Below, in pieces: positions 1,308 to 24,951 of a stretch of 45,656 nucleotides of DNA (the first letter of the stretch is position 1; every line of letters starts with the position of its first letter). The DNA comes from Alphaproteobacteria bacterium (lineage in GTDB: Bacteria; Pseudomonadota; Alphaproteobacteria; Rickettsiales; JABCZZ01): the NCBI GenBank assembly GCA_013288335.1, contig JABDCC010000013.1, positions 1 to 45,656 of the forward strand. Reading direction: 5' to 3'. The notes under the pieces are model-generated. The model had not been told where the DNA came from and made no database searches. It saw nothing but the letters and a program-made list of their open reading frames with translations. The position numbers were made by a program, and so were the translations under genes.

Positions 1308-2552
1308 TTAGTACAAGGCTCTGTTTTTGCTTAGTCCAAAAGTGCGCTGCTCTGCTTCTTCGAGTTTAATTACATAAGGGTGCGTTTTATTCAGCAGCCC
1401 TTTTTTCGTTGCTTTGCCAACAAGCCCTTTCATGGCTTTTTCATCTACAACGTCTTCAATGTTACCATGCCGATCTTTTTGATGCATAGTGCAGAGTTTA
1501 TTTCCAACCGTTATAAAAGACTTCTGAATACTCTCAAATTCTTTGTGAGAATAAATAGATTCATCGGCGATTTTTTGTGAAATTTTAAGTAGTTGAGCAT
1601 CAGACAAATCTTTAAAACCATCTTCTGCTTGATTGTAAGCTTGCTTTATGTTGTCAAATAATTTGTGATTAAAGTAAGCAATGGAAGAAAAACTAATCGT
1701 GTTGGCATCATATAAGCCAGATAGCATCCTCAGATCACAATGTAATTGTGTTTGTTTTAAATCGCCGGTTAACTGGAGGAGCTTTATTTCTGCAAAAGCA
1801 CATCCATGCATCTCCTCTACGTGACGTAGGTAAAGAGGATCTTTAACGTATTCCGCTTTATAACGTAGTGAATCAGACTTTACATCAAATGCATGCCCCA
1901 GTTCGTGATATTTTACAGCAAGGTCATAATATTTCAGAACATCAATATTCGTATTTTTATTGGCTATATCCGATAAATCAGCGTCTCCTTGCAGATAAAA
2001 ATCGAAAAATTCTTTACGTGTTTGGTGAGTGGAGCCAATAATAACCACTTCATATCTTTTTCCATCACTGTCATAAGCTGTCGCCGTAGTCGAGTTATTC
2101 ATTTCTTTTGTTTTTTCCATAATAGAAATTAGTGCGCTGTCTAGTTTTTTATCCTGATTTGCCTCAGGAAAATAATATCTCATTCTCTTCAGGGCTGCTT
2201 CGGGGATTTGCTTGCCCAAATCTTCATAATATGCGGTATTAAATTCAGTCTTATGCGTAATAATATTTGCCCATTCACCCTGGGGAATAACACAAATCCT
2301 GATGTTGGGGTCAATGTCTTTGGCAATTTTTTCTAACGAATCTGGTGCATTAATATTTTTATCGGATAATCTGCCGGCAATATTTTCTAACTTGGCAGGA
2401 TCAATTTTTGTAATAGTTTTGGAAATTGGACGAATGCCAATAGTGTCGTATTGGTAAACAGGGCGATAATCAACCCTGTTTGAATTATTGCACGCATTCA
2501 AAGTGAGTGCAGAACTTGTGGCAAGTAATATGGTTTTAAGCCCGCGCTTCAT
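1308..2552 (-). CDS. putative lipoprotein with HExxH zinc-peptidase-like motif
   Basis: This 414-residue protein has a basic N-terminus and hydrophobic stretch ending in a lipobox-like LNAC, placing the lipidated Cys at residue 21. The mature protein would therefore be anchored to an envelope membrane. The motif HELGH at residues 216-220 matches the HExxH zinc-binding/catalytic signature. A downstream HVEEMHGCAFAE segment (244-255) could supply the third, glutamate ligand of a gluzincin-like site. No known family is otherwise recognised. The gene is antisense within the nuo cluster: its stop abuts the nuoA stop with one base between, and it is divergent from nuoB across about 160 bp. Peptidase activity is inference from the motif. 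Confidence 0.8.
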   Translation of the reverse strand: MKRGLKTILLATSSALTLNACNNSNRVDYRPVYQYDTIGIRPISKTITKIDPAKLENIAGRLSDKNINAPDSLEKIAKDIDPNIRICVIPQGEWANIITHKTEFNTAYYEDLGKQIPEAALKRMRYYFPEANQDKKLDSALISIMEKTKEMNNSTTATAYDSDGKRYEVVIIGSTHQTRKEFFDFYLQGDADLSDIANKNTNIDVLKYYDLAVKYHELGHAFDVKSDSLRYKAEYVKDPLYLRHVEEMHGCAFAEIKLLQLTGDLKQTQLHCDLRMLSGLYDANTISFSSIAYFNHKLFDNIKQAYNQAEDGFKDLSDAQLLKISQKIADESIYSHKEFESIQKSFITVGNKLCTMHQKDRHGNIEDVVDEKAMKGLVGKATKKGLLNKTHPYVIKLEEAEQRTFGLSKNRALY

Positions 2553-2713: not shown

Positions 2714-3247
2714 ATGCAAACACATATTATAACCAGTAATGTTCAGCCCAATCAGGATGCTCTGCTCGGCGATGTGATGGAAAGTTTTAACGATAAAGGC
2801 TATGTCGTTGCTCAGCTTGATAAACTGGTCAACTGGGCGCGTACTGGCTCACTCTGGCCGATGACCTTTGGTCTTGCCTGTTGTGCAGTGGAAATGATGC
2901 AGGCGGCAGCCTCACGCTATGATATGGATCGTTTCGGTGTGGTGTTCCGCCCCAGTCCACGTCAAGCAGATGTGATGATCGTGGCTGGCACGTTATGCAA
3001 TAAAATGGCACCGGCTCTGCGCAAAGTATACGACCAGATGGCTGAACCGCGTTACGTGATTTCCATGGGTTCGTGTGCCAATGGCGGTGGCTATTACCAT
3101 TATTCTTATTCTGTTGTACGTGGTTGTGATCGCATTGTGCCGGTAGATGTGTATGTGCCGGGCTGCCCACCAACCGCAGAAGCGCTCATTTATGGCGTAT
3201 TGCAATTGCAGAAAAAAATCAGAAGAACCGGAACATTTAAGAGATAG
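2714..3247 (+). CDS. nuoB: NADH-quinone oxidoreductase subunit B (cluster N2 subunit)
   Basis: A 177-residue peripheral-arm subunit of complex I that carries the terminal 4Fe-4S cluster N2, which reduces quinone. The conserved cysteines are in GLACCAVEM (adjacent pair), [12 protein letters not shown] and [11 protein letters not shown]. Length and the C-terminal ending IRRTGTFKR are typical. It follows the divergent lipoprotein gene and starts a run of plus-strand nuo genes; nuoC begins 9 bp downstream. Confidence 0.97.
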
Positions 3248-3256
3248 CATATCAAT

Positions 3257-3886
3257 ATGGCAAAAACACTTTCAGAACTGGCAGAGTACATCAAACAAAG
3301 CCAAGCGGTGGAAACCCAGATCAAGCTTGACGAATTAATGCTACTTGCGCCTTCGGATAATATAGTTGGGTTGCTTACTTTTCTACGTGATGACCCGGAA
3401 TGTAAATTCACGCAGCTTATGGATATTTGTGGAGTGGATTTTCCAGAACGTGCCAAACGTTTTGATGTCGTGTATAATCTTTTATCGCCGAAAATGAATA
3501 AACGCATTCGTGTAAAAGTGCAGACTAATGAAGCTACACCTGTACCATCAGTGGTGTATGTGTTTTCGTCAGCAGGCTGGTTTGAGCGCGAAACCTGGGA
3601 TATGTACGGCGTATATTTTTCCGGCAATCCTGACTTACGCAGAATTCTTACGGATTATGGTTTTGACGGGCATCCCTTACGCAAAGATTTTCCGCTTACC
3701 GGTTTTGTAGAGTTACGTTATGACGAAGAACAAAAAGCCGTTGTGTATTCTCCGGTCAAGCTTCCACAAGCTTACCGCACGTTTGATTTCTTAAGTCCGT
3801 GGGAAGGTGCAAAATATGCCTTGGCTCCAACTGTGGCGCCCACTGCATCGACTGAAAAACCGGCAGAAAAAGCGAAGGCAAACTAA
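3257..3886 (+). CDS. nuoC: NADH-quinone oxidoreductase subunit C
   Basis: A 209-residue 30-kDa-type subunit of the complex I hydrophilic arm. Signature segments include [12 protein letters not shown], the [27 protein letters not shown] block and [12 protein letters not shown]. The C-terminal tail is rich in Ala, Pro and Lys, as is common in alphaproteobacteria. It is a free-standing NuoC, not the NuoCD fusion of enterics. Its TAA stop overlaps the ATG of the following acetyltransferase by one base (TAATG), suggesting translational coupling with a gene that is not a complex I subunit. Confidence 0.96.
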
Positions 3887-4389
3887 TGACAAACGAATGG
3901 AGCATATCGCCTGCGACCGATGCTGACTGGCCGGGTATCTGGGCAATATTTCGTGATGTGATAAGTCGCGGTGACACTTATACCTATGCGCCGGATATGA
4001 CCGAACAGCAGGCAAAGAATATCTGGGTACTCAATGGCTGTCGTGGCTTTGTGGTAAAACATGGAGACAATATTGTCGGTACATTTACACTGCGCACGAA
4101 TAAACCAGGTTTTGGTGATCACGTAGCCAATGCAGGGTACATGGTGCATAAGGATTATCGCGGGCGCGGCATTGCACAAGCCATGTGCCAATATTCGCTG
4201 AAAGCTGCAAAGGATCTTGGCTATAATGCGATGCAGTTTAATTTTGTGGTCGCAAGCAATAAACCTGCCGTGCAGTTATGGCAGAAAATGGGTTTTAAAA
4301 TTGTTGGCACCGTGCCCAAAGCATTCAGGCACGCCACACAAGGATTAACCGATGTATATATAATGTACCGCTCTTTGGATGATATTTAA
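3886..4389 (+). CDS. GNAT family N-acetyltransferase
   Basis: A 167-residue single-domain GNAT protein. The acetyl-CoA pyrophosphate-binding motif A is visible as [19 protein letters not shown] (RGRGIA, about residues 86-104), followed by motif B features [20 protein letters not shown]. The substrate cannot be read from sequence. It overlaps nuoC by one base and ends one base before nuoD, so it is embedded in the operon. Whether it acetylates a complex I component or is simply carried along is unknown. Confidence 0.9.
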
Positions 4390-4390
4390 T

Positions 4391-5566
4391 ATGGCAACTG
4401 AAACAAAAAACATGACTATCAATTTCGGCCCTCAACATCCGGCAGCGCACGGCGTTTTGCGCCTCGTGCTGGAAATGGATGGGGAGGTGGTAGAACGCGC
4501 TGATCCCCATATTGGCTTGCTTCACCGCGGTACCGAAAAACTTATCGAACATAAAACCTATCTGCAGGCACTACCTTATTTTGATCGCTTGGATTATGTG
4601 TCGCCAATGGCGCAAGAGCATGGTTTTGCGCTTGCAGTTGAAAAATTACTTGGTTGTGAAATTCCCCCGCGCGCAAAATATCTCCGCGTATTATTCTGCG
4701 AAATAACCCGTATATTAAATCACATTTTAAACGTCACCACACAAGCCTTAGACGTAGGTGCTATGACACCGCTTTTATGGCTCTTTGAAGAACGCGAAAA
4801 ACTCATCACCTTTTATGAGCGTGCCTCCGGTGCGCGTTTTCACTCAGCCTATATTCGCCCGGGTGGTGTGCATCAGGATATTCCCGCTGGCATGGAAGAC
4901 GATATATTAAAATGGGCAAACGGCTTTGGTAAATATCTGGATGATGTAGACAACCTGCTTACCGAAAACCGCATCTGGAAACAGCGCACGGTAGATATTG
5001 GCGTAGTCACCGAACAGCAAGCTTTGGACTGGGGTTTTTCAGGGCCGATGCTACGTGGTTCGGGTGTGGCGTGGGATATACGCAAAGCACAGCCATACGA
5101 AATATATGATCAGTTGGACTTTGATATTCCAGTTGGTAAAAATGGCGATTGCTGGGATCGGTATCTGGTGCGTATGGAAGAAATGCGTCAGTCACTAAAA
5201 ATTATCAGGCAATGCATTGAAAAAATGCCCAAGGGCGAGGTGGTAACAAACGATCCAAAAATTGCCCCGCCAAAACGCGCGCTCATGAAACAATCCATGG
5301 AAGCGATGATCAATCATTTTAAACTCTATACTGAAGGGTATCGCGTGCCTGCAGGTGAGACTTATACTGCGGTGGAAACTCCGAAAGGCGAATTTGGTGT
5401 GTATCTGGTGGCAGACGGCAGCAACCAGCCTTATCGCTGCAAGGTTCGTGCACCAGGCTTTGCGCATTTACAGGCGCTCGATTTTATGTGCAAAGGACAT
5501 ATGCTTGCTGACGTAGTGACCATTATTGGTACGCAGGATATTGTATTTGGTGAAATTGATCGATGA
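4391..5566 (+). CDS. nuoD: NADH-quinone oxidoreductase subunit D (49-kDa, quinone site)
   Basis: A 391-residue subunit that forms the quinone-binding cavity with NuoB. It contains the typical [14 protein letters not shown] start, [14 protein letters not shown], the [12 protein letters not shown] segment, [21 protein letters not shown] and the terminal [15 protein letters not shown]. The ATG at 4391 is chosen over the in-frame ATG at 4379, since the latter overlaps the acetyltransferase and family members begin just before [14 protein letters not shown]. The stop overlaps the next start (ATGA). Confidence 0.97.
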
Positions 5567-6102
5567 AATCATGGGCAAAGATAATTTTTGTTATTTGCGC
5601 CGTAATAATTTTTTATGTAGCGGCGTCACCCGGAATTGCGGCGGCGCAGAACAAGGGGGGTACGAAACCAAGTAATGGTGATTATAGTTTATGCAGGGAC
5701 GAAAATTTAATCGGAAACTACTACAAAATGGTGCTGTTTACCGAGACTCCCGAGCGTGGTGAGAGTGCGTGGATTCATAATATACCATACCATTATCTCG
5801 CATTCTTTCCTGATCGTTATTATTCCTATCTTGCTTCCGACAAGGAGATAACAACGCCTGCTAAACTGGAAGAACTTTTGCAATGGCCAAGAAAGAGCAG
5901 TCACTTAATGCTGTATACACTGGGCAGTAAGGGTGATTTGAATCTTTATAATGGCAAAGTCATTAACTACCGATACCGTTGTTTTGTGATTAAAGCAGAT
6001 AGTGGTGTGTATAAAAAAGGCGACCTGATACTCACGGGGTATAATAGGGAAGCCAAAAGTGAATTATATAAAATATATCGTCTATGGTATAAGAGAGGTT
6101 AG
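5563..6102 (+). CDS. secreted protein of unknown function inside the nuo operon
   Basis: A 179-residue protein with a clear N-terminal signal: MKSW, a hydrophobic helix (residues 6-22) and an ASPGIAAAQ stretch that offers a signal-peptidase I site near residue 29. The mature part contains Cys39 and a second Cys near residue 142, which could form a periplasmic disulfide, and is rich in Tyr. No family is recognised. Its ATG overlaps the nuoD stop (ATGA), and nuoE follows after 5 bp, so it is probably co-translated with complex I subunits. The function is unknown; an envelope role is inferred only from the signal peptide. Confidence 0.78.
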
Positions 6103-6107
6103 AAAAT

Positions 6108-6719
6108 ATGAGTACAAGTACATCCGTAGAATTCGAGCAGCCAACGAGTTTTTCCTTTACGGCAGAGAATGCTGCAGAGGCAAAAAAGATTATTACAAAA
6201 TACCCCGCTGGCCGCCAGGCTTCAGCGGTTATGCCGCTATTAGCTCTTGCACAGAAGCAACATAATAATTGGCTCCCAAAAGTAGCGATGGATGTGGTGG
6301 CAGACATGCTTGATATGGCGCCAATGCGTGTATATGAAGTGGCCACGTTTTATACCATGTATAATCTGGCGCCCGTGGGTAAACATCTGGTTGAGCTTTG
6401 TACGACCACACCGTGCTGGCTTCGTGGTTCTGCAGATGTAGTAAAAGCATGTGAAAAGCATTTAGGTGTTGCTGTGGGTGAAACTACTGCTGACAAACAA
6501 TTTACTTTAAAAGAAGCAGAATGTTTGGGCGCGTGTGTGAATGCGCCTATGGGTTCCATTAATGGTATTTTCTATGAAGATTTAACACCGGACAATGTAG
6601 TTAAACTACTTGGTGAATTAAAATCGGGCAAAACTCCGAAACCCGGATCACAGGCAGGACGTGTAAGCTCCGAGCCACAAGGCGGCGCAACTACCCTAAA
6701 AGGCAAAAAATCGGCATGA
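6108..6719 (+). CDS. nuoE: NADH-quinone oxidoreductase subunit E (24-kDa, 2Fe-2S)
   Basis: A 203-residue thioredoxin-fold subunit of the NADH dehydrogenase module, binding cluster N1a. Ligand cysteines are in CTTTPCWLRG and AECLGACVNAPMG. The helical N-terminus with PAGRQASAVMPLL and the VYEVATFYTMYN segment are typical. A 30-residue basic, glycine-rich tail follows the domain, as in other alphaproteobacteria. A strong AGAGAGG ribosome-binding site precedes the ATG. The stop overlaps the next gene's start (ATGA). Confidence 0.96.
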   Translation: MSTSTSVEFEQPTSFSFTAENAAEAKKIITKYPAGRQASAVMPLLALAQKQHNNWLPKVAMDVVADMLDMAPMRVYEVATFYTMYNLAPVGKHLVELCTTTPCWLRGSADVVKACEKHLGVAVGETTADKQFTLKEAECLGACVNAPMGSINGIFYEDLTPDNVVKLLGELKSGKTPKPGSQAGRVSSEPQGGATTLKGKKSA

Positions 6720-7441
6720 AATACGTAATGGTATTATGGTGTGCGTTATTGTTTTTTGCATCTACTGCAAGCGCCGCAGTGACTGTGAATGAACAGGTGT
6801 TGCAGAAAGGATTGTTCTTTGATTCCGCGTGCAAGGGTGAAAATCAATGTATGTGCGAAGCGGATATCAAATATCCTGTGATAAATGGCATGGCAGATGC
6901 GCACGCTCAGGAAGTGCTCAATAAAAGTTTTAAAGATGCGGCTACGCAAGTGCAGTGCAAAGGTGAGGCGTCTAAAGAAGCTCCAAAGGACACTGATTCC
7001 TCGATAAAATATAGTTACGAAGTCACTTTTCAATCTCCGCAAATTATGGGTTTAGAGTTTACTAACTGGGCATATGAAGGTGGTGCGCACGGTAACGGAA
7101 TCATTGAGGGAATGATTTTTGATTTGGAAAAAAACAAGTATCTTACGGCTGATGATATATTTGGTGCCAATATGGCTGCGGTCAATCAAGCAATATACGA
7201 TGCGCTTGCACCAAATTCCGAAGGTATTTTTCATGATGAAATAGAAAGCCGCAAAGGTGCGTTTATCAAAGATGGCAAATGTAACGGGTGTACATTGGTG
7301 TTAAAACCGGAAGGAATAAATGTAATATTTCAGCTATATGAAATTGCCTCTTTTGCGGATGGCAATAAATCGGTATCTATACCTGATAAACTCATTGCTT
7401 ACCCTGCTATCCTTAAGGCGTTATCTCAAACTAAATCATAG
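6716..7441 (+). CDS. secreted DUF3298/DUF4163-like protein
   Basis: A 241-residue protein with a signal peptide (MKYVMVLWCALLFFASTASA, cleavage near residue 20). The central part has the PxInG strand, a long insertion, and the diagnostic WAYEGGAHGNG segment followed by FDLEKNKYLTADDIF. These are hallmarks of the DUF4163/DUF3298 pair found in RsiV-like and YxxB-type periplasmic proteins. It has several cysteines, including Cys-x-Cys in QCMCEAD and CNGC. It sits between nuoE (4-bp overlap) and nuoF (6-bp gap). The molecular role is not known; family assignment rests on the GGAH motif and domain order. Confidence 0.8.
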   Translation: MKYVMVLWCALLFFASTASAAVTVNEQVLQKGLFFDSACKGENQCMCEADIKYPVINGMADAHAQEVLNKSFKDAATQVQCKGEASKEAPKDTDSSIKYSYEVTFQSPQIMGLEFTNWAYEGGAHGNGIIEGMIFDLEKNKYLTADDIFGANMAAVNQAIYDALAPNSEGIFHDEIESRKGAFIKDGKCNGCTLVLKPEGINVIFQLYEIASFADGNKSVSIPDKLIAYPAILKALSQTKS

Positions 7442-7447
7442 GTTCAT

Positions 7448-8728
7448 ATGTTAAAAGATGAAGATAGAATATTTACCAATCTCTACGGTTTTGAAGATTG
7501 GAAACTTGCCGGTGCAAAAAAGCGCGGCGACTGGTCTACGACTAAGGAAATTCTTGCCAAAGGACCCGAGGCCATCATTGAAGAAGTAAAAGCTTCAGGC
7601 TTACGTGGACGCGGTGGTGCAGGTTTTTCTACTGGTATGAAATGGTCGTTTATGCCCAAGAAATCTGACGGTAGGCCGTCTTATCTTGTGGTGAATGCCG
7701 ATGAAGGTGAACCGGGCACCTGCAAAGATCGTGACATGATGCGTCACGATCCGCATAAGCTGATTGAAGGCTGTCTCATTGGTGGCTTTGCTATTAGAGC
7801 GGTTGCTGCATATATTTATATTCGTGGTGAATTTTCTCAGGAAGCCGACAATCTCGAATACGCGATCAATGAAGCCTACGAAGCAGGGTTGCTTGGTAAA
7901 AACGCCTGCGGTTCCGGTTATGATTTTGATGTGTTTTTACATCGCGGTGCTGGTGCTTATATCTGTGGTGAAGAAACTGCGCTTATTGAATCACTGGAAG
8001 GTAAAAAAGGCCAGCCACGTTTGAAGCCGCCATTTCCTGCAGCGATGGGTGTGTGGGGTTGTCCGACTACGGTCAATAATGTCGAAAGTATTGCTGTGGT
8101 TCCCGAAATTTTGCGTCGTGGACCTTCATGGTTTGCAGGAATTGGCCGCGCCAATAACACAGGCACGAAAGTGTTCTGCATTTCAGGTCACGTAAATAAC
8201 CCATGCAATGTGGAAGAAGCGATGGGAATTCCGATGAAGGAACTCATTGAAAAACACGCAGGCGGTGTGCGCGGCGGTTGGGATAATTTACTTGCCGTAA
8301 TCCCCGGTGGCTCTTCCGTTCCACTCATTCCAAAATCTATCTGTGATACCGTACTCATGGATTTTGATGCGCTTCGCGATGTAAAATCAGGACTTGGTAC
8401 AGCGGCGGTGATTGTGATGGATAAATCCACCGATTTGGTAAAAGCCATCGCACGGCTTTCCAAATTCTATATGCATGAATCTTGCGGCCAATGCACACCA
8501 TGCCGCGAAGGCACTGGTTGGATGTGGCGCGTGATGGAACGCATGGTGACCGGTAATGCGGACTTGGAAGAAATAGATCACTTGCTCGATGTTAGCACTC
8601 GTATTGAAGGCCATACTATCTGTGCGCTTGGTGATGCTGCTGCTTGGCCGATTCAGGGGCTATTCCGCCATTTCCGCCCGGAAGTGGAAAGACGCATTTC
8701 GGAATTTCATAGCAAGAAAGCTGCTTAA
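7448..8728 (+). CDS. nuoF: NADH-quinone oxidoreductase subunit F (51-kDa, NADH/FMN site)
   Basis: A 426-residue subunit carrying the NADH site, FMN and cluster N3. The glycine-rich NADH loop [16 protein letters not shown] (about residues 50-65), the FMN region [34 protein letters not shown], and the 4Fe-4S ligands in [12 protein letters not shown] plus a distal Cys in [13 protein letters not shown] are all visible. It is full length and intact. An unknown gene separates it from nuoG. Confidence 0.97.
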
Positions 8729-8813
8729 TACAATGTTTTTGAATAAAATTTTAGGCATTTTATGGCACAAGACTTGAATAGATAGGTTTAGACATAACCA
8801 ATGAGAGAGTTTT

Positions 8814-9332
8814 ATGACTAAACATCCATTACTGCCCAAAGATTATACGGATTCTATTACCCATGCGAACATCATTTATGCGCTCAATATTTATGCAAAT
8901 GAGGGAAGCGAAGGAGTTGCTAATCCCCGTCTGAAGTGGGATTTACATAGTGCATGGGAAGATGCCCAGGAATTACTCGCAAAAAGCCACTGGCGTTATA
9001 ATACCGGCGAGGATTTGGATAAAAACTATGCTGATTACGTGCTTGCGGCATATACGGAGGATGAGATAGAAGATTTGAACAAGATTATCGCAGGGATTGT
9101 CGGCCATCAGATACTGGAACCGGATACTCAAATTGCCTTTCGACGCATTGAGCATAAAAAAGGTGGTGAAATGAGTTTAATTATTTCCAACTCTGTGGCA
9201 GAAGTACTGAATAAAAGATTTCCTTCTCTAACCAGCAAAGGAGAAGGGCAGGCAGGAAGCAATACATTAAAGGCAATTAAAGATACGTTATGCAAAATAT
9301 TTCATTGGAAAAAGAATAAAAACACTGGATAA
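8814..9332 (+). CDS. conserved-looking hypothetical protein between nuoF and nuoG
   Basis: A 172-residue, mainly helical, soluble protein with no signal peptide or membrane segment. It has a tryptophan-containing central part (HSAWEDAQELLAKSHW), an acidic stretch AAYTEDEIEDLNK and a basic C-terminus ending HWKKNKN. I do not recognise a family. A GAGAG ribosome-binding site precedes the ATG, and the gene starts 85 bp after nuoF and ends 8 bp before nuoG, which supports it being a real operon member. The function is unknown. Confidence 0.65.
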   Translation: MTKHPLLPKDYTDSITHANIIYALNIYANEGSEGVANPRLKWDLHSAWEDAQELLAKSHWRYNTGEDLDKNYADYVLAAYTEDEIEDLNKIIAGIVGHQILEPDTQIAFRRIEHKKGGEMSLIISNSVAEVLNKRFPSLTSKGEGQAGSNTLKAIKDTLCKIFHWKKNKNTG

Positions 9333-9340
9333 ATAGCTCT

Positions 9341-11371
9341 ATGACAAAACTCACCATCGACGGAAAAGAAATCGAAGTACCAGCGGGCGCAAGCGTCATT
9401 CAGGCGTGCGATTTGGCAGGCGTGGAAATCCCACGTTTTTGCTATCATGATCGCCTTAAGATTGCTGGTAACTGCCGCATGTGTCTGGTGGAAGTTTCTC
9501 CAGGCCCACCAAAGCCGCAAGCTTCTTGCGCATTGCCCGTGGCTGAAGGCATGGTGGTAAAAACCAATACGCCAATGGTAAAAAAAGCCCGCGAAGGGGT
9601 TATGGAGTTCCTGCTCATTAACCATCCGCTTGATTGCCCGATCTGCGATCAGGGTGGCGAATGTGATTTACAGGATCAGGCGATATATTATGGTCGTGGC
9701 ACAAGCCGATTCGACGAAAATAAGCGCGCTGTACAAGATAAATATATGGGACCCCTGATTAAAACCCAGATGACGCGTTGCATCCATTGCACGCGCTGCA
9801 TTCGTTTTTCCTCTGACGTTGCGGGTGTGCCTGAGCTCGGAGCTACTGGCCGCGGTGAGCATATGGAAGTCGGAACCTATATTGAAAAAGCACTTACTTC
9901 TGAGCTTTCGGGAAACATGGTGGATATTTGCCCGGTGGGCGCACTTACCTCTAAACCCTATGCATTTACGGCACGCCCTTGGGAATTAAAAAAAACCGAA
10001 TCAATTGACGTCATGGACGCCGTGGGAAGCGCTATTCGTGTGGATTCGCGCCAAAATACCGTGCTGCGGGTATTGCCACGTTTAAATGAAGAAATTAACG
10101 AAGAATGGATATCGGATAAAACCCGCCATGCTTGCGATGGACTCAAAACCCAGCGTCTTGATCGCCCCTATATTCGCCGCGATGGTAAGTTACAGGAAGC
10201 AACATGGCCGCAGGCTTTTGCTGCTGTAGCAGAAAAACTTAAAGCCACTGCCGGAAATAAAATTGCCGCTATTGCCGGCGATATGGCATGTATCGAAAGT
10301 ATGTATGCTCTGAAAGAATTGATGAAATCTGTTGGCTCACCCCATATGGATTGCCGTCAGGACGGTGCAAAGCTCGATGTCACCGATCAGGCATCATGGC
10401 TATTTAACACGACTATTGCAGGCATTGAAAATGCTGATGTGTTGCTACTCATTGGAACCAATCCACGCCATGAAGCGGCAATTATCAATGCGCGTATTCG
10501 CAAGACCTATCTGAAGGGTAAGCTCAAGATTTATGCTATCGGTGATAAGGTGGATCTCACTTACAAAACCGAGTGGCTTGAGAATAATCCGCAGTTCTTA
10601 AATGAAATCGCTTCTGGCAAACATGCACTTTCCGAAGTGTTGAAGAAAGCCGAACGCCCGATGATTATTATAGGGCAGGGTGCGCTTACTCGCGCTGATG
10701 GCGAAGAAATATTAAAATCAGCAAGAGCGATTGCTGATAATTGCGGTTTAATCAAAGATGGCTGGAACGGCTTTAACGTATTACACACAGCCGCTGCGCG
10801 TGCTGGCGGTCTTGGTATTGGTTTTGTACCGCAGAAAGACGGACTGGATGTAAGCGGCATATTAGAGGCGACCCGTAAATGGGATATCGAAGTAGTGTAT
10901 CTTCTCGGCGCGGACGAAATAAATACCAATGAGTTTGGCCAGGCGTTTGTCATTTATCAGGGACATCATGGTGATAAAGGCGCGCACCGTGCCGATGTTA
11001 TTCTGCCAGGGTTTGCCTACACCGAAAAAAGTGCAAGTTATGTAAACACAGAAGGTGTTTCACAGCGGACAGTGCAAGCGGTTTCCGGACCGGGTGAAGC
11101 AAAAGAAGATTGGAAAATAATTCGCGCATTGTCAGAAGCAATTGGTAAATCTTTGCCGTTTGATAGCTTAGAACAACTACGCGCAAATCTTCAGCATGCT
11201 AAGCCAGCTGTATGGAAATCTGGAAAGGGTAATGCAAATGCAAAAATTGCAGCACAGCCTTTTGCCTACGTAGTACAGAATTTTTATATGACCGACCCAA
11301 TCAGCCGTGCTTCCAAAACGATGGCTGAATGCGTTACAGTCCTGCTGGAAGGCAAAAAGGAGGCGGCGTAA
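9341..11371 (+). CDS. nuoG: NADH-quinone oxidoreductase subunit G (75-kDa)
   Basis: A 676-residue subunit with an N-terminal ferredoxin-like 2Fe-2S domain (ligands in [16 protein letters not shown] and the later SCAL), a His-Cys 4Fe-4S segment ([18 protein letters not shown]), a further 4Fe-4S domain ([10 protein letters not shown] and DICPVGAL) and a C-terminal molybdopterin-oxidoreductase-like domain without cofactor function. Length is normal for alphaproteobacteria. Its TAA shares one base with the nuoH ATG, and the nuoH ribosome-binding site AAGGAGG lies inside the nuoG coding end. Confidence 0.97.
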
Positions 11372-12381
11372 TGCAGGAAATACTGAATACATACATTATT
11401 CCGGTACTGTTTATTCTCGGAAAAATCCTGCTAGTGGTCGTGCCGCTTATAGTGTGTGTAGCGTTACTCACCCTAATGGAGCGCAAAGTAATTGCTGCTA
11501 TGCAATTGCGCAAAGGCCCAAACGTAGTTGGATTATTTGGCTTTTTGCAGCCATTTGCTGACGGGTTGAAATTGCTTTTAAAAGAAACAGTGTTGCCTAC
11601 CAAATCCAACAAAGTAATTTTTATTTTAGCACCTATGCTAACCTTTGGCTTGGCATTACTTGGCTGGGCAGTGATTCCGGTCTCGCAAAATTTTGTTATC
11701 GCAAATATTAATGTAGGGGTCTTATATTTATTTGCGATTTCTTCGCTCGGAGTATACGGCATCATCATGGCGGGCTGGGCGAGTAACTCAAAGTATGCGT
11801 TCTTAGGCGCAATCCGCAGTGCCGCACAAATGGTTTCTTACGAAGTTTCCATCGGTTTTGTTATCGTGACGGTGATGATTATGGTGGGCTCACTTAATTT
11901 AACCGACATCGTGAACGCGCAAAAGGGTGGCATTGCTCATTGGCATGCCTCAGGTATTCTTTTTCCGATGCTTATCATTTTCTTTATTTCGGCGCTTGCG
12001 GAAACGAATCGTCATCCGTTTGACTTGCCAGAGGCAGAGGGCGAACTGGTTGCAGGTTACAATGTGGAGTATTCTTCCATGACGTTCGCGTTATTCTTTC
12101 TTGGTGAATATGCCAACATGATTCTGATGAGCGGTATGACCAGCGTGCTTTTCTTGGGTGGCTGGTGGTCGCCGATTAATACTCCGTTCTTTAATGCTAT
12201 CCCTGGTGTACTCTGGTTTGTAGTAAAAATTCTTCTTTTGCTTTTTGTGTTTATCTGGGTACGCGCAACCTTGCCACGTTATCGTTATGATCAGTTGATG
12301 CGGTTGGGCTGGAAAATTTTCCTGCCAGTATCATTGTTATGGGTGGTAATTATTTCGGGTTATGTAGTGTACTACCGATAA
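11371..12381 (+). CDS. nuoH: NADH-quinone oxidoreductase subunit H
   Basis: A 336-residue, eight-helix membrane subunit that joins the hydrophilic and membrane arms and forms part of the quinone tunnel. Diagnostic segments are [42 protein letters not shown]-like text (here [20 protein letters not shown]) and the acidic loop [20 protein letters not shown]. The ATG at 11371 is preferred to the upstream in-frame ATG at 11329 because it has an ideal AAGGAGG site and overlaps the nuoG stop. Confidence 0.96.
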
Positions 12382-12423
12382 TAATCCGATATTAAACCAA
12401 GAAAATTTAAAAGGCAAAATAAA

Positions 12424-13029
12424 GTGGAAGCAATTTCAGAGTGGCTTGTTAACTGTATCGAGGGTGTCGGGTATATCGGTATTTTTGTTGCGATGTTTTT
12501 GGGCAATGTGCTGGTGCCGATTCCGGTTGAGCTTATCATGATTCCTGCGGGCTATCTTGTACAGCAGGGCAATATGAATCTGTTTGTTCTGCTGAGTTTT
12601 GCGATTGCCGGTGATGTGTGCGGTTCACTTTTTTCTTACTATATTGCCTTTCATTTCGGGCGCTTTGTTATATTGAAATATGCTAAATACCTATTTTTTA
12701 ATCAGGAAAGAATGGAAAAGCTGGAGCATTTCTTTGCCAGTCATGGTGAAATTTCAATTATTACTGGGCGCTTAACTCCTGGTTTGCGCCATTTTATGGC
12801 ATTTCCCGCAGGCCTTTCTCACATGAATGCCAAAAGATTTGCCGTATATACAGGCGTTGGCGGTGGGATATGGATGGGGGTCCTGATATTTGTTGGCCAT
12901 ATCATTGGCGGAAATAAGGCGCTCATCAGGCATTACCTGCCTTATTTATCGGGTGCCGCGTTTATGTTGGTATTTTTGATGATTTTATTCTATATAATGC
13001 ATCATAATAAGAAAAAGAAATTGTCTTGA
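12424..13029 (+). CDS. DedA/SNARE-associated family membrane protein
   Basis: A 201-residue polytopic protein starting at GTG. DedA features include the early re-entrant loop with VPIPVELIMIPAGYL, the GDVCGSLFSYYIAFHFGR segment and the ITGRLTPGLRHFMAFPAGLSHM block with conserved Arg, Gly and Pro. DedA proteins are inner-membrane lipid (undecaprenyl-phosphate or phospholipid) transporters or scramblases; the substrate here is not determinable. It lies between nuoH and nuoI (42 bp and 12 bp gaps), another non-complex-I insertion in the operon. Confidence 0.9.
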   Translation: MEAISEWLVNCIEGVGYIGIFVAMFLGNVLVPIPVELIMIPAGYLVQQGNMNLFVLLSFAIAGDVCGSLFSYYIAFHFGRFVILKYAKYLFFNQERMEKLEHFFASHGEISIITGRLTPGLRHFMAFPAGLSHMNAKRFAVYTGVGGGIWMGVLIFVGHIIGGNKALIRHYLPYLSGAAFMLVFLMILFYIMHHNKKKKLS

Positions 13030-13041
13030 GATAGGTAAATT

Positions 13042-13530
13042 ATGTCGGCTGTATACAAAACGATACGTAGTTTCTTTCTTTTTGAAATGGTTTCAGGTCT
13101 TGCAATGACTCTGAAATATTTTTTCAGAAAGCCAGTGACTATTAATTATCCTTATGAAAAAGGTGCGCTTAGCCCACGTTTTCGCGGTGAGCACGCGCTG
13201 CGCCGCTACCCTAACGGTGAAGAACGCTGCATCGCCTGCAAGCTTTGCGAAGCAATTTGCCCGGCTCAGGCAATCACCATTGAAGCGGAAGTTCGCGAAG
13301 ACGGTTCACGGCGTACGACCCGTTACGACATTGATATGACCAAATGCATCTATTGCGGCTTCTGTCAGGAAGCTTGTCCGGTGGATGCAATTGTGGAAGG
13401 GCCTAATTTTGAATTTACGACAGAAACTCGTGAAGAATTATTTTATAATAAAGAAAAATTGCTGGCTAATGGCGATCGCTGGGAACCGGCTATTGCAGCT
13501 AATCTGGCAGCAGATGCAGCGTATCGCTAG
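13042..13530 (+). CDS. nuoI: NADH-quinone oxidoreductase subunit I (two 4Fe-4S clusters)
   Basis: A 162-residue ferredoxin-like subunit carrying clusters N6a and N6b. The two motifs [12 protein letters not shown] and [12 protein letters not shown] each supply four cysteines. The N-terminal amphipathic helix and [18 protein letters not shown] segment are typical. It is the last nuo gene here; nuoJ to nuoN are absent from the window and must lie elsewhere if the complex is complete. RNase D follows 19 bp downstream. Confidence 0.97.
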
Positions 13531-14164: not shown

Positions 14165-15832
14165 TTAGCCCACTCCTTGCACTTCTAATTCTCTTTTGGG
14201 ATTTCTAAATGGCGGTCCGATAATTTCGCGCACATTTTTTCGGACTGATACGCTTTCCAACATTTCTTTTGTGAGATTTCCGCTATTGGGGGGAAAGATG
14301 GTTACAAATGGATCATCAGTATCTTTGAGTTTCTTGTCGAGTCTTCCTAAACTCGAAGAATTTGGCATCTCCAGTGGGTACAAAACTTTAACTTCTGGCT
14401 CTGGATCACCAGGCTTATGATTGGCGTTTGCTGTCCTCAAAGCTGTTTTGCACTCACGTAATATTTTGTTGGGATTAAATGTTGTTTCATAAGCAGCCTT
14501 ATATCCTTTTATATTGCCAGCAACGGCTGCCGCTGCAGCAAATCCCCCTGGTACAGCGGTAATCTTTGTGCCGCTGATTTCTGGGTAGCCAAAAAATTTA
14601 TTATCATGTGTTTGTAATACAGAAAGTTTTATTTTGATATTTTCTATATCAGGGGTACCTGCTAATATGTGTGCTTCATACAGGGTTTTTATATAATCAG
14701 TCATTGCGGCATTTATTTCTACTATGGTAGAATCTTTTCCAAGTGTAGGAAAAGACATATCAAACTTCTTAGCTTTCTTTACTATTTCTTGAGATCTTTC
14801 ATAATCTTTTACGAGTGTAGTAACATATTTCCCATCATCTGAAAATATTACCTCGGTTACTGGCTCGGGAACTTTAATAATTTCTGCTTCTTTACCTTTA
14901 AATGTCTTGCCGATTATATATTCGTACCCCTTTTCCAATACATCATAAGGGATTTTTGTGTTGATACGTCTTTTCAGCGGAAACATTTGTCGATGACTTA
15001 TTTCGATGGCGGTCAGGGAATCGCCGCGTTTTTGGTCTCTTATTATGCCAGAGGCTAACAGATCTTCGGGGCCTTCATATTCTTTAATGTTATATTCTCT
15101 GATATTTTCTCCATTATTGGTGGGTACCATTATAAATTTTGTGCCCTCTTTTATAACCTTACCTTTTTTGATTTCTTTTTCGTGCGTATGTTGGAGCAAA
15201 TCTCTTCTACACTCACCACATAAGCAACTGAAACTTCCATAATTTTTAGGAACTAATTTTCCATCTTTAGTTTTATCTGCTTGGCCGGCCATCAGGTAAA
15301 TAGAGTCAAATATCACGTCTTTGTCGTTAAGGCTTACAGGTTTGTCACTACCATCGGGCCTTTTCCGAAGCCCTTTTTGACATTTGTTTAGCATATTGGT
15401 TTCAGCGCAACCTCTGCCGTAAAAAGAATCTTTGTATATCTTTTCATTATTAGATGCGACGAAGAGATTACCGCTGCTTGTAACCCCAGCAGCTACTGTA
15501 TAATATTTATTTATATCGGTTATGCCAGTGGGGCGGTAATGAACAATTATGTTATTGAGGACAGCAAGTTGCTCCGTTTCAGTCAATCTTTTTTCTTTAC
15601 ATTGTCCAAATGTAAAATAATCGTTATTTTCGCTTTTCTCAATAGAATCACGGTAAATTTTTGTAGCTGTAAGGCGGATTTCCCCTCCCTCAGTTTCCAC
15701 CCATTTCACAGTTTGGCCTTTTTCTTCTCCAGTTCTGGGAGGAAGTGTTATTTCGCCGCTATTACTATAAATAGAATATTTATTTTTATGATAAACTTCT
15801 TCATGTCCGTTACCATTCCCATTCTTTGCCAT
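14165..15832 (-). CDS. two-domain cytidine-deaminase-fold protein with inactive C-terminal copy
   Basis: A 555-residue protein that I cannot match to a named family. Residues 82-215 carry a cytidine-deaminase-like zinc site: NNE at 128-130 (the NxE substrate motif), CAE at 142-144 and CGEC at 205-208 followed by RRDLLQ, equivalent to the PCGxCRQ motif with Leu for Pro. About 40 extra residues separate the two zinc motifs. Residues 375-505 repeat the layout in the same order (LSVLQTHDNKFFGYPE, then PGGFAAAAAV where CAE should be, then PNSSSLGRLDKKL where CxxC should be), but every zinc ligand is lost. This resembles the active plus inactive domain architecture of E. coli Cdd. No signal peptide is seen. 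ATG at 15832 is preferred to TTG at 15844. The substrate is unknown. Confidence 0.8.
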   Translation of the reverse strand: MAKNGNGNGHEEVYHKNKYSIYSNSGEITLPPRTGEEKGQTVKWVETEGGEIRLTATKIYRDSIEKSENNDYFTFGQCKEKRLTETEQLAVLNNIIVHYRPTGITDINKYYTVAAGVTSSGNLFVASNNEKIYKDSFYGRGCAETNMLNKCQKGLRKRPDGSDKPVSLNDKDVIFDSIYLMAGQADKTKDGKLVPKNYGSFSCLCGECRRDLLQHTHEKEIKKGKVIKEGTKFIMVPTNNGENIREYNIKEYEGPEDLLASGIIRDQKRGDSLTAIEISHRQMFPLKRRINTKIPYDVLEKGYEYIIGKTFKGKEAEIIKVPEPVTEVIFSDDGKYVTTLVKDYERSQEIVKKAKKFDMSFPTLGKDSTIVEINAAMTDYIKTLYEAHILAGTPDIENIKIKLSVLQTHDNKFFGYPEISGTKITAVPGGFAAAAAVAGNIKGYKAAYETTFNPNKILRECKTALRTANANHKPGDPEPEVKVLYPLEMPNSSSLGRLDKKLKDTDDPFVTIFPPNSGNLTKEMLESVSVRKNVREIIGPPFRNPKRELEVQGVG

Positions 15833-21859: not shown

Positions 21860-22450
21860 ATGACAACTTCTCTTGATTCGCTGATTGCTTTATTTGCAAA
21901 ATTGCCAGGGCTTGGGCCACGTTCGGCAAGGCGTCTTGTGCTGCATTTGATAAGAAACAAAGAAAAGTTGCTTAATCCTTTGGTGAATACCTTATTACAA
22001 ACGAGTGAGACCATACGCACCTGTCATGTGTGTGGTAATCTTGATATTGTTGACCCTTGCAACATTTGTAGTGATACAAGACGTGACCACTCGCAAATTT
22101 GCGTAGTAGAGGAAATTGCTGATTTATGGGCGATTGAGCGCAGCAAAATGTTTCGCGGGTTTTATCATGTATTGGGTGGAGTGTTGTCGGCGCTTGATGG
22201 CAGAGGGCCCGAGCAATTGAACATTGAAAGTTTAGTAACCCGCGCGAGCGCGCCGGAAGTTGCCGAGGTGATTCTTGCAACCAATGCCACAGTGGAAGGC
22301 CAGACCACTGCTTATTACATCAGTGATCGCTTGGTGGATTGCAACGTAAAGATATCCCGTTTAGCACATGGAATTCCCATGGGTGGCGAGCTTGATTATC
22401 TGGATGATGGAACATTAGGCGCGGCGCTCAAAGCACGGGTGAACTATTAG
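21860..22450 (+). CDS. recR: recombination protein RecR
   Basis: A 196-residue RecR used in RecFOR gap repair. The helix-hairpin-helix [17 protein letters not shown] (about residues 14-30), a zinc finger ([16 protein letters not shown]), the Toprim domain with [14 protein letters not shown] and [19 protein letters not shown], and the C-terminal [22 protein letters not shown] are all present. Its TAG overlaps the stop of the convergent 834-residue gene by three bases, with no room for a terminator. Confidence 0.97.
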
Positions 22451-24951
22451 GCGCCTTGCGCCATTACAGAGTCATTAGAAGCAACCTTATCCGTAAATGG
22501 GACTATTTTCGCTTCCTGCGGTTTTATGGATTTTTTCTTATCTTCGGTTGCAAAAGTTCTTGCTGGCTTTTCTGCATCCGGTGGATTGATAGCATTATGC
22601 ACCACTTTCAAGTTTGTTTCCGGCTCTTCTTTTGCAGATTCTTCCTTGTTCCAGTCTTTGCGCCAGCCATTTACTAAGGCGTGATACGCTTCCTGCTCCT
22701 TCTCAATCTTCTTTTTTGCACCACAGAATTTTGCAAATTTACCAATCAACCCACCCACTTCGGTGAATTTTATTTTTAAGGTATCGACGCCACACTCATA
22801 GAGAGTTTTATCAAGGCCTTTGCCTTTGAAATGCTCAACCATTTCTTTTTTGAGTGCATCTTGTTTTTCTTTTGGCACGCCGCCTTCTTCCCAGTATTTA
22901 TCGCGAACTTCATGAATCTTTTCGACGAATTTGGCAATATGCTCTCCGGTGAGTGGCATGCCGGAACTTTTAGTGAGTGGCTCTAATATGGTACGCGCCA
23001 GATATTCAAACTCCGTTGGGTTTTTGTCAGGGTTATGAACCGCGTATTTGCAGATATATTCAGTACCTTCACGCAAGCTGAAATAAGAATTGGTAGCGCC
23101 ACCACTAATGGACTTCAGTCCTGGTGTCATGACGTGGCGATCCTGCATAGAGACAGTGCGGTAAGAGAGTGATGCGCCGTAGTTTATGAAGGGAATAAAC
23201 TCGAGAAGAAATGTACCGGCAGCTGATCCAAAAATACTGGAAAGTGCCACCGGAAGAATCATCTTGTCACCGTGAATCTGGCGGACGCGTGCAATAGAAT
23301 CTTCCAGCGACTCCATTTTTTCATTTTTCTTATAGGCGGGTTTATAGGCATGGTGACTACCCCATGCAACGCCTGCAAAACAGAAGGCTGCAAAGGTATA
23401 TAGCCCACCAAATTTCTTCATGCGGTTTGCAAAAGAGGTATTGTTGGGATCGTATTTAAGCAAACCATAGAGTGGTTGTAATATTTTTGAATAGGCGGTT
23501 TTAGCAATTTCTGCATCATTGCTTAAACGACGACCAGTCAGTAACTCACCTGCTTTAAGTCCTAAAAACCCACCGCCGCTTAAACCGATCGCCGACCAGA
23601 AGCGATGTACGGGAACTACGGCAAGTGCGGCATCACCCATCCATTTTGCAAATCCGAGCAACCCACCATTTACAAAACTTCTTTTGGCGGATTGCTGATT
23701 TTCAAGACGCTTTACATATTCCTCAGCAGAAATAGCCGATAAGTTATCTTTGTCAATTTTAGTGGCACCTGTAGAAGCCATTGCGGCAGTGGCTAAGCCA
23801 ACACCTGCTGCGCCCGCCGCGATACCCCAGCTTTTTGCGGCACTGCTTGCGGCTTTTTCTGCTGCGGTATTCAGAGCGGGAATCTTCAAGCGAATAGCAT
23901 CAATCTTTTTGCCAAAATCCATAGACTCAGCAATCCGGCCAAGCCAACCATTATTTCCGGTGAGCATGCCACCACCGAGTTTCTGCAAATTATTGCTCTT
24001 AAGGTAGGTATTGATACCTTCACTAATTTCTTTCTGGATTACGGCGGTTTCTTTTCCTTTGTGCGTGTTATATGCTTCCTCAAAAATATTTTGAATTTTT
24101 GTAACGATAGTTTTCTTCTCGTCATCATTTAGTTTGCGAAACAACGGAGAAAATACGGAGTTGGCCATTTCCTTGCCAAAGTTTTCTGAGGCAACAGTAG
24201 TATTCCCTTTGGCCTGGTTTAAGAAATTAGAAGTTCTGCTGAGTATATTATTAAATGCTTTTTCCGGTCCCATCGCGAGTTTGGATTGGGTATTAGAAAA
24301 TTTACGCAGGAATGGAAGGCCGAAAGCTTCTGCGGCGCCCACCATGGTTTTGGCATTGTTATTCAGAAAGAATGCAGAGTTCAGTGAAGTACCATAAAGC
24401 AAACCAGTAAGACCTGAAACGCTTGCAAGCCATGCAGTACCGCCGGCTATATTGCGCCATATCAAACCTTGTTTGTAGCTAGCGAGTGTATCGGATTCTA
24501 ATGGACTTAAAATTTCTTTCTTCAGCACTTTTTCATTGAGAGCTTTTATGTGAGGTCCCATCGCACTTGTCTTGAAGAAGTACGAACTGCCCTGCACGGC
24601 ACCAATTGCACCACCGGCAGCAGGTAACATCTGATGCAGCACTTTAAGCCATTGGTCACGTGGGTGATCGGAGAAGGGGTTATATTTTATGGCGCCATGT
24701 AAGAAACGCAAAGGACGAGGAACGTCTTGTCTTCGGATTTCTTCATACTGGCTGCCGTTAATTTTATGACCGAACAAAATGTCCGACATATATTTCATCA
24801 CGGAAAAGCCAATAACCATTCCAAGCACGTTGTACAAACGGTGCATACTGGGGAAGTTTTTTTGCGGAGTTGCAGAATTATGCGGAGGCACAGCATGGAA
24901 GCCGCCCGACAAATATCCTAACGCGTTGGTAATTTTTCCTTCAAACCGCAT
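22447..24951 (-). CDS. large internally duplicated membrane-associated protein of unknown function
   Basis: An 834-residue protein that I do not recognise. It has many glycine/alanine-rich hydrophobic segments (for example near residues 41-60, 108-125, 168-190, 375-392, 453-468, 515-532, 566-590) separated by charged stretches, and a Lys/Glu-rich tail from about 740. Two regions align by eye: residues 34-128 ([10 protein letters not shown] ... [18 protein letters not shown] ... [15 protein letters not shown]) and 447-537 ([10 protein letters not shown] ... [16 protein letters not shown] ... [13 protein letters not shown]). This shows an internal duplication. No signal peptide is obvious. It stands alone upstream of the ELM1 gene on the same strand, and its stop overlaps recR. 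Confidence 0.75.

Follow-up and report, generated by a model that had tools for sequence, protein, structure and literature searches.

A family of tandem deaminases that is apparently undescribed and patchily inherited has been found within one alphaproteobacterial order, and one of its members, the protein P0001, is probably a divergent tandem cytidine deaminase (CDA) that retains its activity, as judged from its sequence and a structural model. We analysed the whole stretch of 45,656 nucleotides that carries its gene (hereafter called the window), in which P0001 is encoded on the minus strand, a detail that the initial annotation had left unstated, from an ATG at 15832 to a stop codon at 14165. 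The gene (14165..15832) is complete with 555 amino acids, as supported by its open reading frame (ORF) and homologues, and an in-frame TTG would be an alternative start giving 559 amino acids. Also, a 14-codon ORF (15854-15810, minus strand) follows a G-rich Shine-Dalgarno-like run and extends, in a different frame, across the start of the deaminase gene; this ORF is possibly a leader or an artefact of the start site. In the full text of open-licence papers, no description of such a family was found.

Motifs and fold of the two halves

P0001 starts with an N-terminal extension (residues 1-80; 15593..15832, minus strand as are all the features below), which was delimited by the alignment and the AlphaFold2 model and contains a small beta unit at residues ~25-57; an alignable segment is present also in the relatives of groups f23 and f29. 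The extension is followed by the deaminase domain predicted to be active (residues 81-252; 15077..15592), an interdomain linker of low model confidence (residues 253-366; 14735..15076), and a degenerate deaminase domain (residues 367-546; 14195..14734). In the N-terminal half, N128-x-E130, C142-A143-E144 (15401..15409; a zinc ligand and the catalytic Glu) and C205-G-E-C208 (15209..15220; the other zinc ligands) were found in this order, exactly as annotated. The C142-C205 spacing is 63 residues in P0001, 38-93 in the relatives by a simple pattern count, and 31-42 (ordinarily ~33) in CDAs. An insertion between the zinc motifs is thus real, but it is closer to 30 residues than to the 40 originally proposed. 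In the C-terminal half, furthermore, profile alignment confirmed that F431-A432-A433 (14534..14542) takes the position of CAE and S493-S-L-G496 (14345..14356) that of CGxC, and the zinc ligands in this second domain are absent from every family member. Directly after the latter motif, R497-x-x-K500 (14333..14344) is nearly invariant in the degenerate domains of the relatives (R in 17 of 18, K in all 18) and may help in substrate binding, for example of a phosphate. The C-terminal F/Y-x-N/S-P-K tail (14195..14209) is common to most relatives other than those of the f29 type.

The catalytic residues are kept among relatives of ~20-30% identity. Indeed, in our A2 alignment of 19 proteins from carrier genomes, A143, E144, C205, G206 and C208 are all invariant, and CAE is conserved in 17 of the 19 rows, C142 being replaced solely by Asp (D-A-E) in G702 and G696. 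Beyond this alignment, the members of a short subfamily carry CSE, CGE or HAE instead of CAE, with HAE in one relative; apart from these exceptions, the zinc residues and the catalytic Glu are conserved in the relatives. It might be supposed that such a protein has the deaminase fold without deaminase activity and plays a binding or scaffold role, given the extreme divergence, the degenerate second half and the Cys-to-Asp replacement in two relatives, but the retention of C142 in nearly all aligned relatives and the invariance of the other three residues make this very improbable. In the NxE motif, the Asn is conserved (within one alignment column) across relatives but the Glu is not, while P0001 has both. 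As this ribose-binding Glu is not conserved in the family, the substrate may differ from plain cytidine.

Profile comparisons and the structural model place both halves of P0001 in the CDA fold class, in agreement with the tandem fold of one catalytic and one degenerate domain that had been proposed. The two outcomes that would have counted against that proposal, a missing deaminase fold and variable zinc residues in orthologues, did not occur, save for the exceptions at C142 given above. When compared with 28 CDAs by hhalign, the family profile of the N-terminal half matched at 99.0% probability (E 2e-18) and that of the C-terminal half at 96.4% (E 1e-9), and the two halves matched each other at 96.3%. 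The linker segment of residues 276-365 gave 2.8%, and the reversed and column-shuffled control profiles gave at most 0.9%; the tandem layout of the motifs is therefore more than chance. The whole family profile was collinear with two-domain Cdd across the two domains (97.9%, E 4e-13), and a profile of 19 relatives hit the CDAs 2d30 (E 9e-7) and 1ux0 (E 2e-6) as well as blasticidin-S deaminase (E 2e-5) in PDB. With the C-terminal half of P0001 alone, or with two close relatives only, the CDA signal was absent, and it appeared with the family profile; the assignment of the C-terminal domain hence draws on that profile together with the model.

AlphaFold2 gave a pLDDT of 30 from the single sequence of P0001 and a model of moderate confidence (pLDDT 53, pTM 0.40) from five sequences, the low pTM of which makes the way the domains pack against each other uncertain. 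In each half of the model, the order alpha1-beta1-beta2-alpha2-beta3-alpha3-beta4 is observed, and the top matches listed by Foldseek (best E 1.5e-3) comprised nothing but CDAs and blasticidin-S deaminases. By VIA, residues 84-249 were superimposed on 1zab (Z 10.7, rmsd 2.9, 119 aligned) and residues 368-542 on 2d30 (Z 9.7). In terms of the division between the C-terminal beta-hairpin and Helix-4 types, the model has strands at residues 232-235 and 245-247 that are not separated by a helix, in a region of low pLDDT.

The closest architectural counterpart is the two-domain Cdd of the E. coli type (TIGR01355, PF08211; PDB 1ctt, 4eg2, 6l08), which likewise consists of an active N-terminal and a degenerate C-terminal domain in collinear order. 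As the initial annotation claimed, however, P0001 is much longer (555 vs ~294 amino acids), having in addition the ~30-residue insertion between the zinc motifs, the long linker and the N-terminal beta extension. The R-x-x-K signature also sets the P0001 family apart from two-domain Cdd, and the C-terminal domain of the family is closer to ordinary CDAs than to that of Cdd, although the profile depths are uneven and this comparison is not decisive. Tetrameric CDAs (TIGR01354, PF00383; PDB 2d30, 1jtk, 1zab) were the best profile, Foldseek and VIA matches and share with P0001 the fold and the three-Cys zinc site (CAE/CGxC), but are single-domain proteins of ~130-145 amino acids, whereas P0001 joins two such domains in one chain, one of them dead. 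The P0001 family is thus CDA-like in fold and motifs, yet P0001 itself fails the curated CDA cut-offs of Pfam and NCBIfam.

Distribution and history of the family

P0001 matched no family in Pfam, NCBIfam and PADLOC, where no CDA model was hit even at E 10, and it gave nothing significant against PHROGs and solved structures in PDB; it fell under the curated cut-offs of PF00383, PF08211 and TIGR01355. To this extent, the suggestion of a new family is supported. Direct searches with P0001 against 55 relatives and 385 genomes of the class returned nothing convincing, with one marginal match of 44 residues in a frame with a stop codon, and no relatives came from tblastn and pattern searches of plasmids and phages or of viral and genome contigs, nor from the family alignments in viral contigs. 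The family was instead reached by relay, in which a PF00383 scan of relatives in the order gave large ORFs with weak or odd matches, several of them with the same layout, and an alignment including P0001 then served as the profile.

Among 343 genomes of the order, the profile detected 24 carriers, the window genome included, and the nearest relatives of P0001 are those in G632 (177 bits) and G633 (174 bits) with ~31-32% identity. Some relatives (L069 and L070) are clearly over the PF00383 cut-off, and the short members match TIGR01354 and TIGR01355 under the cut-offs, far under in the case of TIGR01355. In 289 genomes of the class and 249 of the phylum, the profile matched only single CDA domains besides the window gene; the long tandem form was therefore seen solely in this order. 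Also, we noticed a signal-peptide-like segment at the start of two short relatives from f13 (L073 and L074), so that export of some members is possible. Two other ORFs of the order with weak PF00383 matches, L076:1434-4406 (rev; 990 amino acids) and L077:2589-4283 (rev; 564 amino acids), look possibly effector-like by eye.

Given the conserved catalytic site, the similarity of the short relatives to ordinary Cdd, and the fact that no Cdd of the PF08211 type was reported among the few genomes of the order searched, P0001 could be a divergent stand-in for Cdd in pyrimidine salvage. The family gene was, nonetheless, not found in two genomes of the same genus, G001 (53% complete) and G002 (complete), in which synteny shows the locus to be rearranged with the deaminase gene missing. 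Because carriers are so few and a complete genome of the same genus lacks the gene, this is not a core enzyme; the long extensions, and the fact that most relatives have lost the Glu of NxE, also suit a housekeeping Cdd badly. We thus consider the salvage role unlikely.

In a FastTree phylogeny, the members from f23 and f29 are scattered over several places; P0001 (f1) groups with the G632 and G633 proteins (f23) with a support of 1.0, and the G628 protein (f23) with that of G047 (f5) with a support of 0.97. This pattern fits lateral transfer, or old paralogy followed by losses. The GC content of the P0001 gene is 37.8% as compared with 44% for the window, and its GC3 is 30.6% as compared with 42-46% for the housekeeping genes rnd, kdsD, nuoG and mfd. 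The patchy distribution, the conflict between gene tree and taxonomy, and the low GC content would all suit an effector that deaminates nucleic acid of a host or a rival, and host-directed deaminases have precedents in Wolbachia, Orientia and Rickettsia (PMC3482391). The deaminases of polymorphic toxins and symbiont effectors described there belong to the deaminase superfamily, are fast-evolving and patchy as is the family here, and in some cases have CxE. P0001 differs from them, however, in its lack of a delivery or immunity context and in having CDAs rather than Helix-4 effectors as its closest matches: no delivery domain (by Pfam and NCBIfam), repeat region or adjacent immunity gene was recognised, and no export signal was seen by eye in P0001. 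Furthermore, the deaminase gene lies between mutS and plsX (names assigned by eye) in most f29 genomes, which is unlike a toxin cassette. An effector role therefore appears still somewhat less likely than the one in salvage.

Genomic neighbourhood and the LOG-type partner

In the window, the P0001 gene is flanked by an rnd-like gene and, on the opposite strand, a kdsD-like gene, both identified by eye. The lone location that had been pointed out thus holds for the window but not for the family, since a large protein is encoded directly downstream of the deaminase in four relatives (those of G632, G633, G628 and G047), which occupy two chromosomal sites unrelated to each other, and a fifth (G010) lies in a cluster of nucleotide enzymes. 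The large partners are found at L111:7239-10037, L114:8307-11090, L112:6986-9172 (rev) and L113:1-2181 (rev). Pfam detected LOG (PF03641) in all of the first three and a weak Ham1-like domain (PF01725) in L111 and L114 only. The last partner, that of G628, was read by eye; it resembles the others weakly by BLAST, and its assignment hence comes mainly from its position and motifs. The copies with both Ham1 and LOG, those of G633 and G047, are 53% identical though the genomes belong to different families. In G010, the cluster (L116:1434-9063) encodes two LOG proteins, an ADA-like enzyme (PF00962, E 1e-17; the CARF-ADA defence model matched weakly), a second deaminase of the CDA superfamily, and the tandem deaminase.

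As for other ORFs in the window, no significant Pfam match was obtained for an 834-amino-acid ORF that by eye overlaps the end of recR (22447-24951, minus strand) or for a 414-amino-acid lipoprotein-like ORF with a YHELGH motif and a GC content of 36.9% (1308-2552, minus strand). The complex I genes (2714-13530; nuo by eye) are also broken up by unrelated ORFs, for example at 3886-4389, 5563-6102, 6716-7441, 8814-9332 and 12424-13029.

These neighbours could mean that the tandem deaminase and the LOG-type, in some cases Ham1-like, protein form a conflict or sanitation module, joined in one genome by the ADA-like enzyme and the second deaminase, which destroys or detoxifies nucleotides, whether those of a phage, a host or prey or those of a damaged pool. 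The repeated adjacency at unrelated sites, the similarity of the Ham1-LOG copies across families and the G010 cluster speak for such a module, as does co-occurrence: a large LOG-type protein was found in 8 of the 24 carriers but in 11-13 of the 319 other genomes (p ~1e-5, on a hand-made list and uncorrected for kinship). The partner was, however, not found in 16 of the 24 carrier assemblies searched, among them the window genome, where it is absent from the window and only a LOG protein of housekeeping size (190 amino acids) was found in the rest of a 67%-complete assembly. Large ORFs related to these partners are present in some 20 genomes of the order, and f23 genomes without the deaminase have in most cases a LOG-type protein after miaA, which indicates that this protein is able to stand alone. 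The Ham1 matches are weak and missing from some of the copies, the Pfam scan having covered those other than G628, and a defence library gave no match for the deaminase family or the large partners. The module is hence a doubtful reading, albeit the least unlikely of the alternatives weighed here.

Predicted activity and its significance

In CDAs, a zinc-activated water attacks the substrate with the catalytic Glu as a proton shuttle, and a neighbouring subunit or domain completes the active site. We consider it fairly probable that P0001 is a zinc-dependent deaminase of the CDA clade, competent for catalysis, organised as an internal pseudo-dimer, and acting on a free cytidine-type nucleoside or nucleotide. 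In the N-terminal domain, zinc would be held by C142, C205 and C208, and E144 would activate a water molecule for hydrolysis of the 4-amino group of a cytidine-type, possibly modified, nucleoside or nucleotide. The C-terminal domain, with its zinc site lost, would take the part of an internal partner: it would stabilise the fold and, probably, complete the active site of the N-terminal domain. CDAs and blasticidin-S deaminase are the closest in fold, and nucleotide-hydrolase domains adjoin some of the relatives; we infer from this that free nucleosides or nucleotides are most likely the target rather than DNA or RNA. N4-modified pyrimidine nucleosides are known substrates of prokaryotic CDAs (PMC9897663).

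Nucleic-acid editing, which the initial annotation had raised, was dropped as the leading reading for want of support, the closest matches being CDAs of free nucleosides and blasticidin-S deaminase.

A bolder and slightly less likely extension of the module is that the tandem deaminase, together with the LOG-type (at times Ham1-LOG) partner, makes up a mobile system of nucleotide processing that has gone unrecognised and serves in defence, as an effector or in the sanitation of modified nucleotides; in it, the dead R-x-x-K domain might bind a phosphorylated ligand and thereby control or complete the active one.

With the P0001 family, a heavily studied enzyme fold, which has been the source of base editors, drug-metabolising enzymes and toxins, gains a divergent and much enlarged branch, in which a degenerate domain is retained with conserved residues of its own across great divergence. 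The neighbours of some relatives also lead to a specific and cheaply testable hypothesis, namely that these proteins may take part in the processing of free nucleotides.
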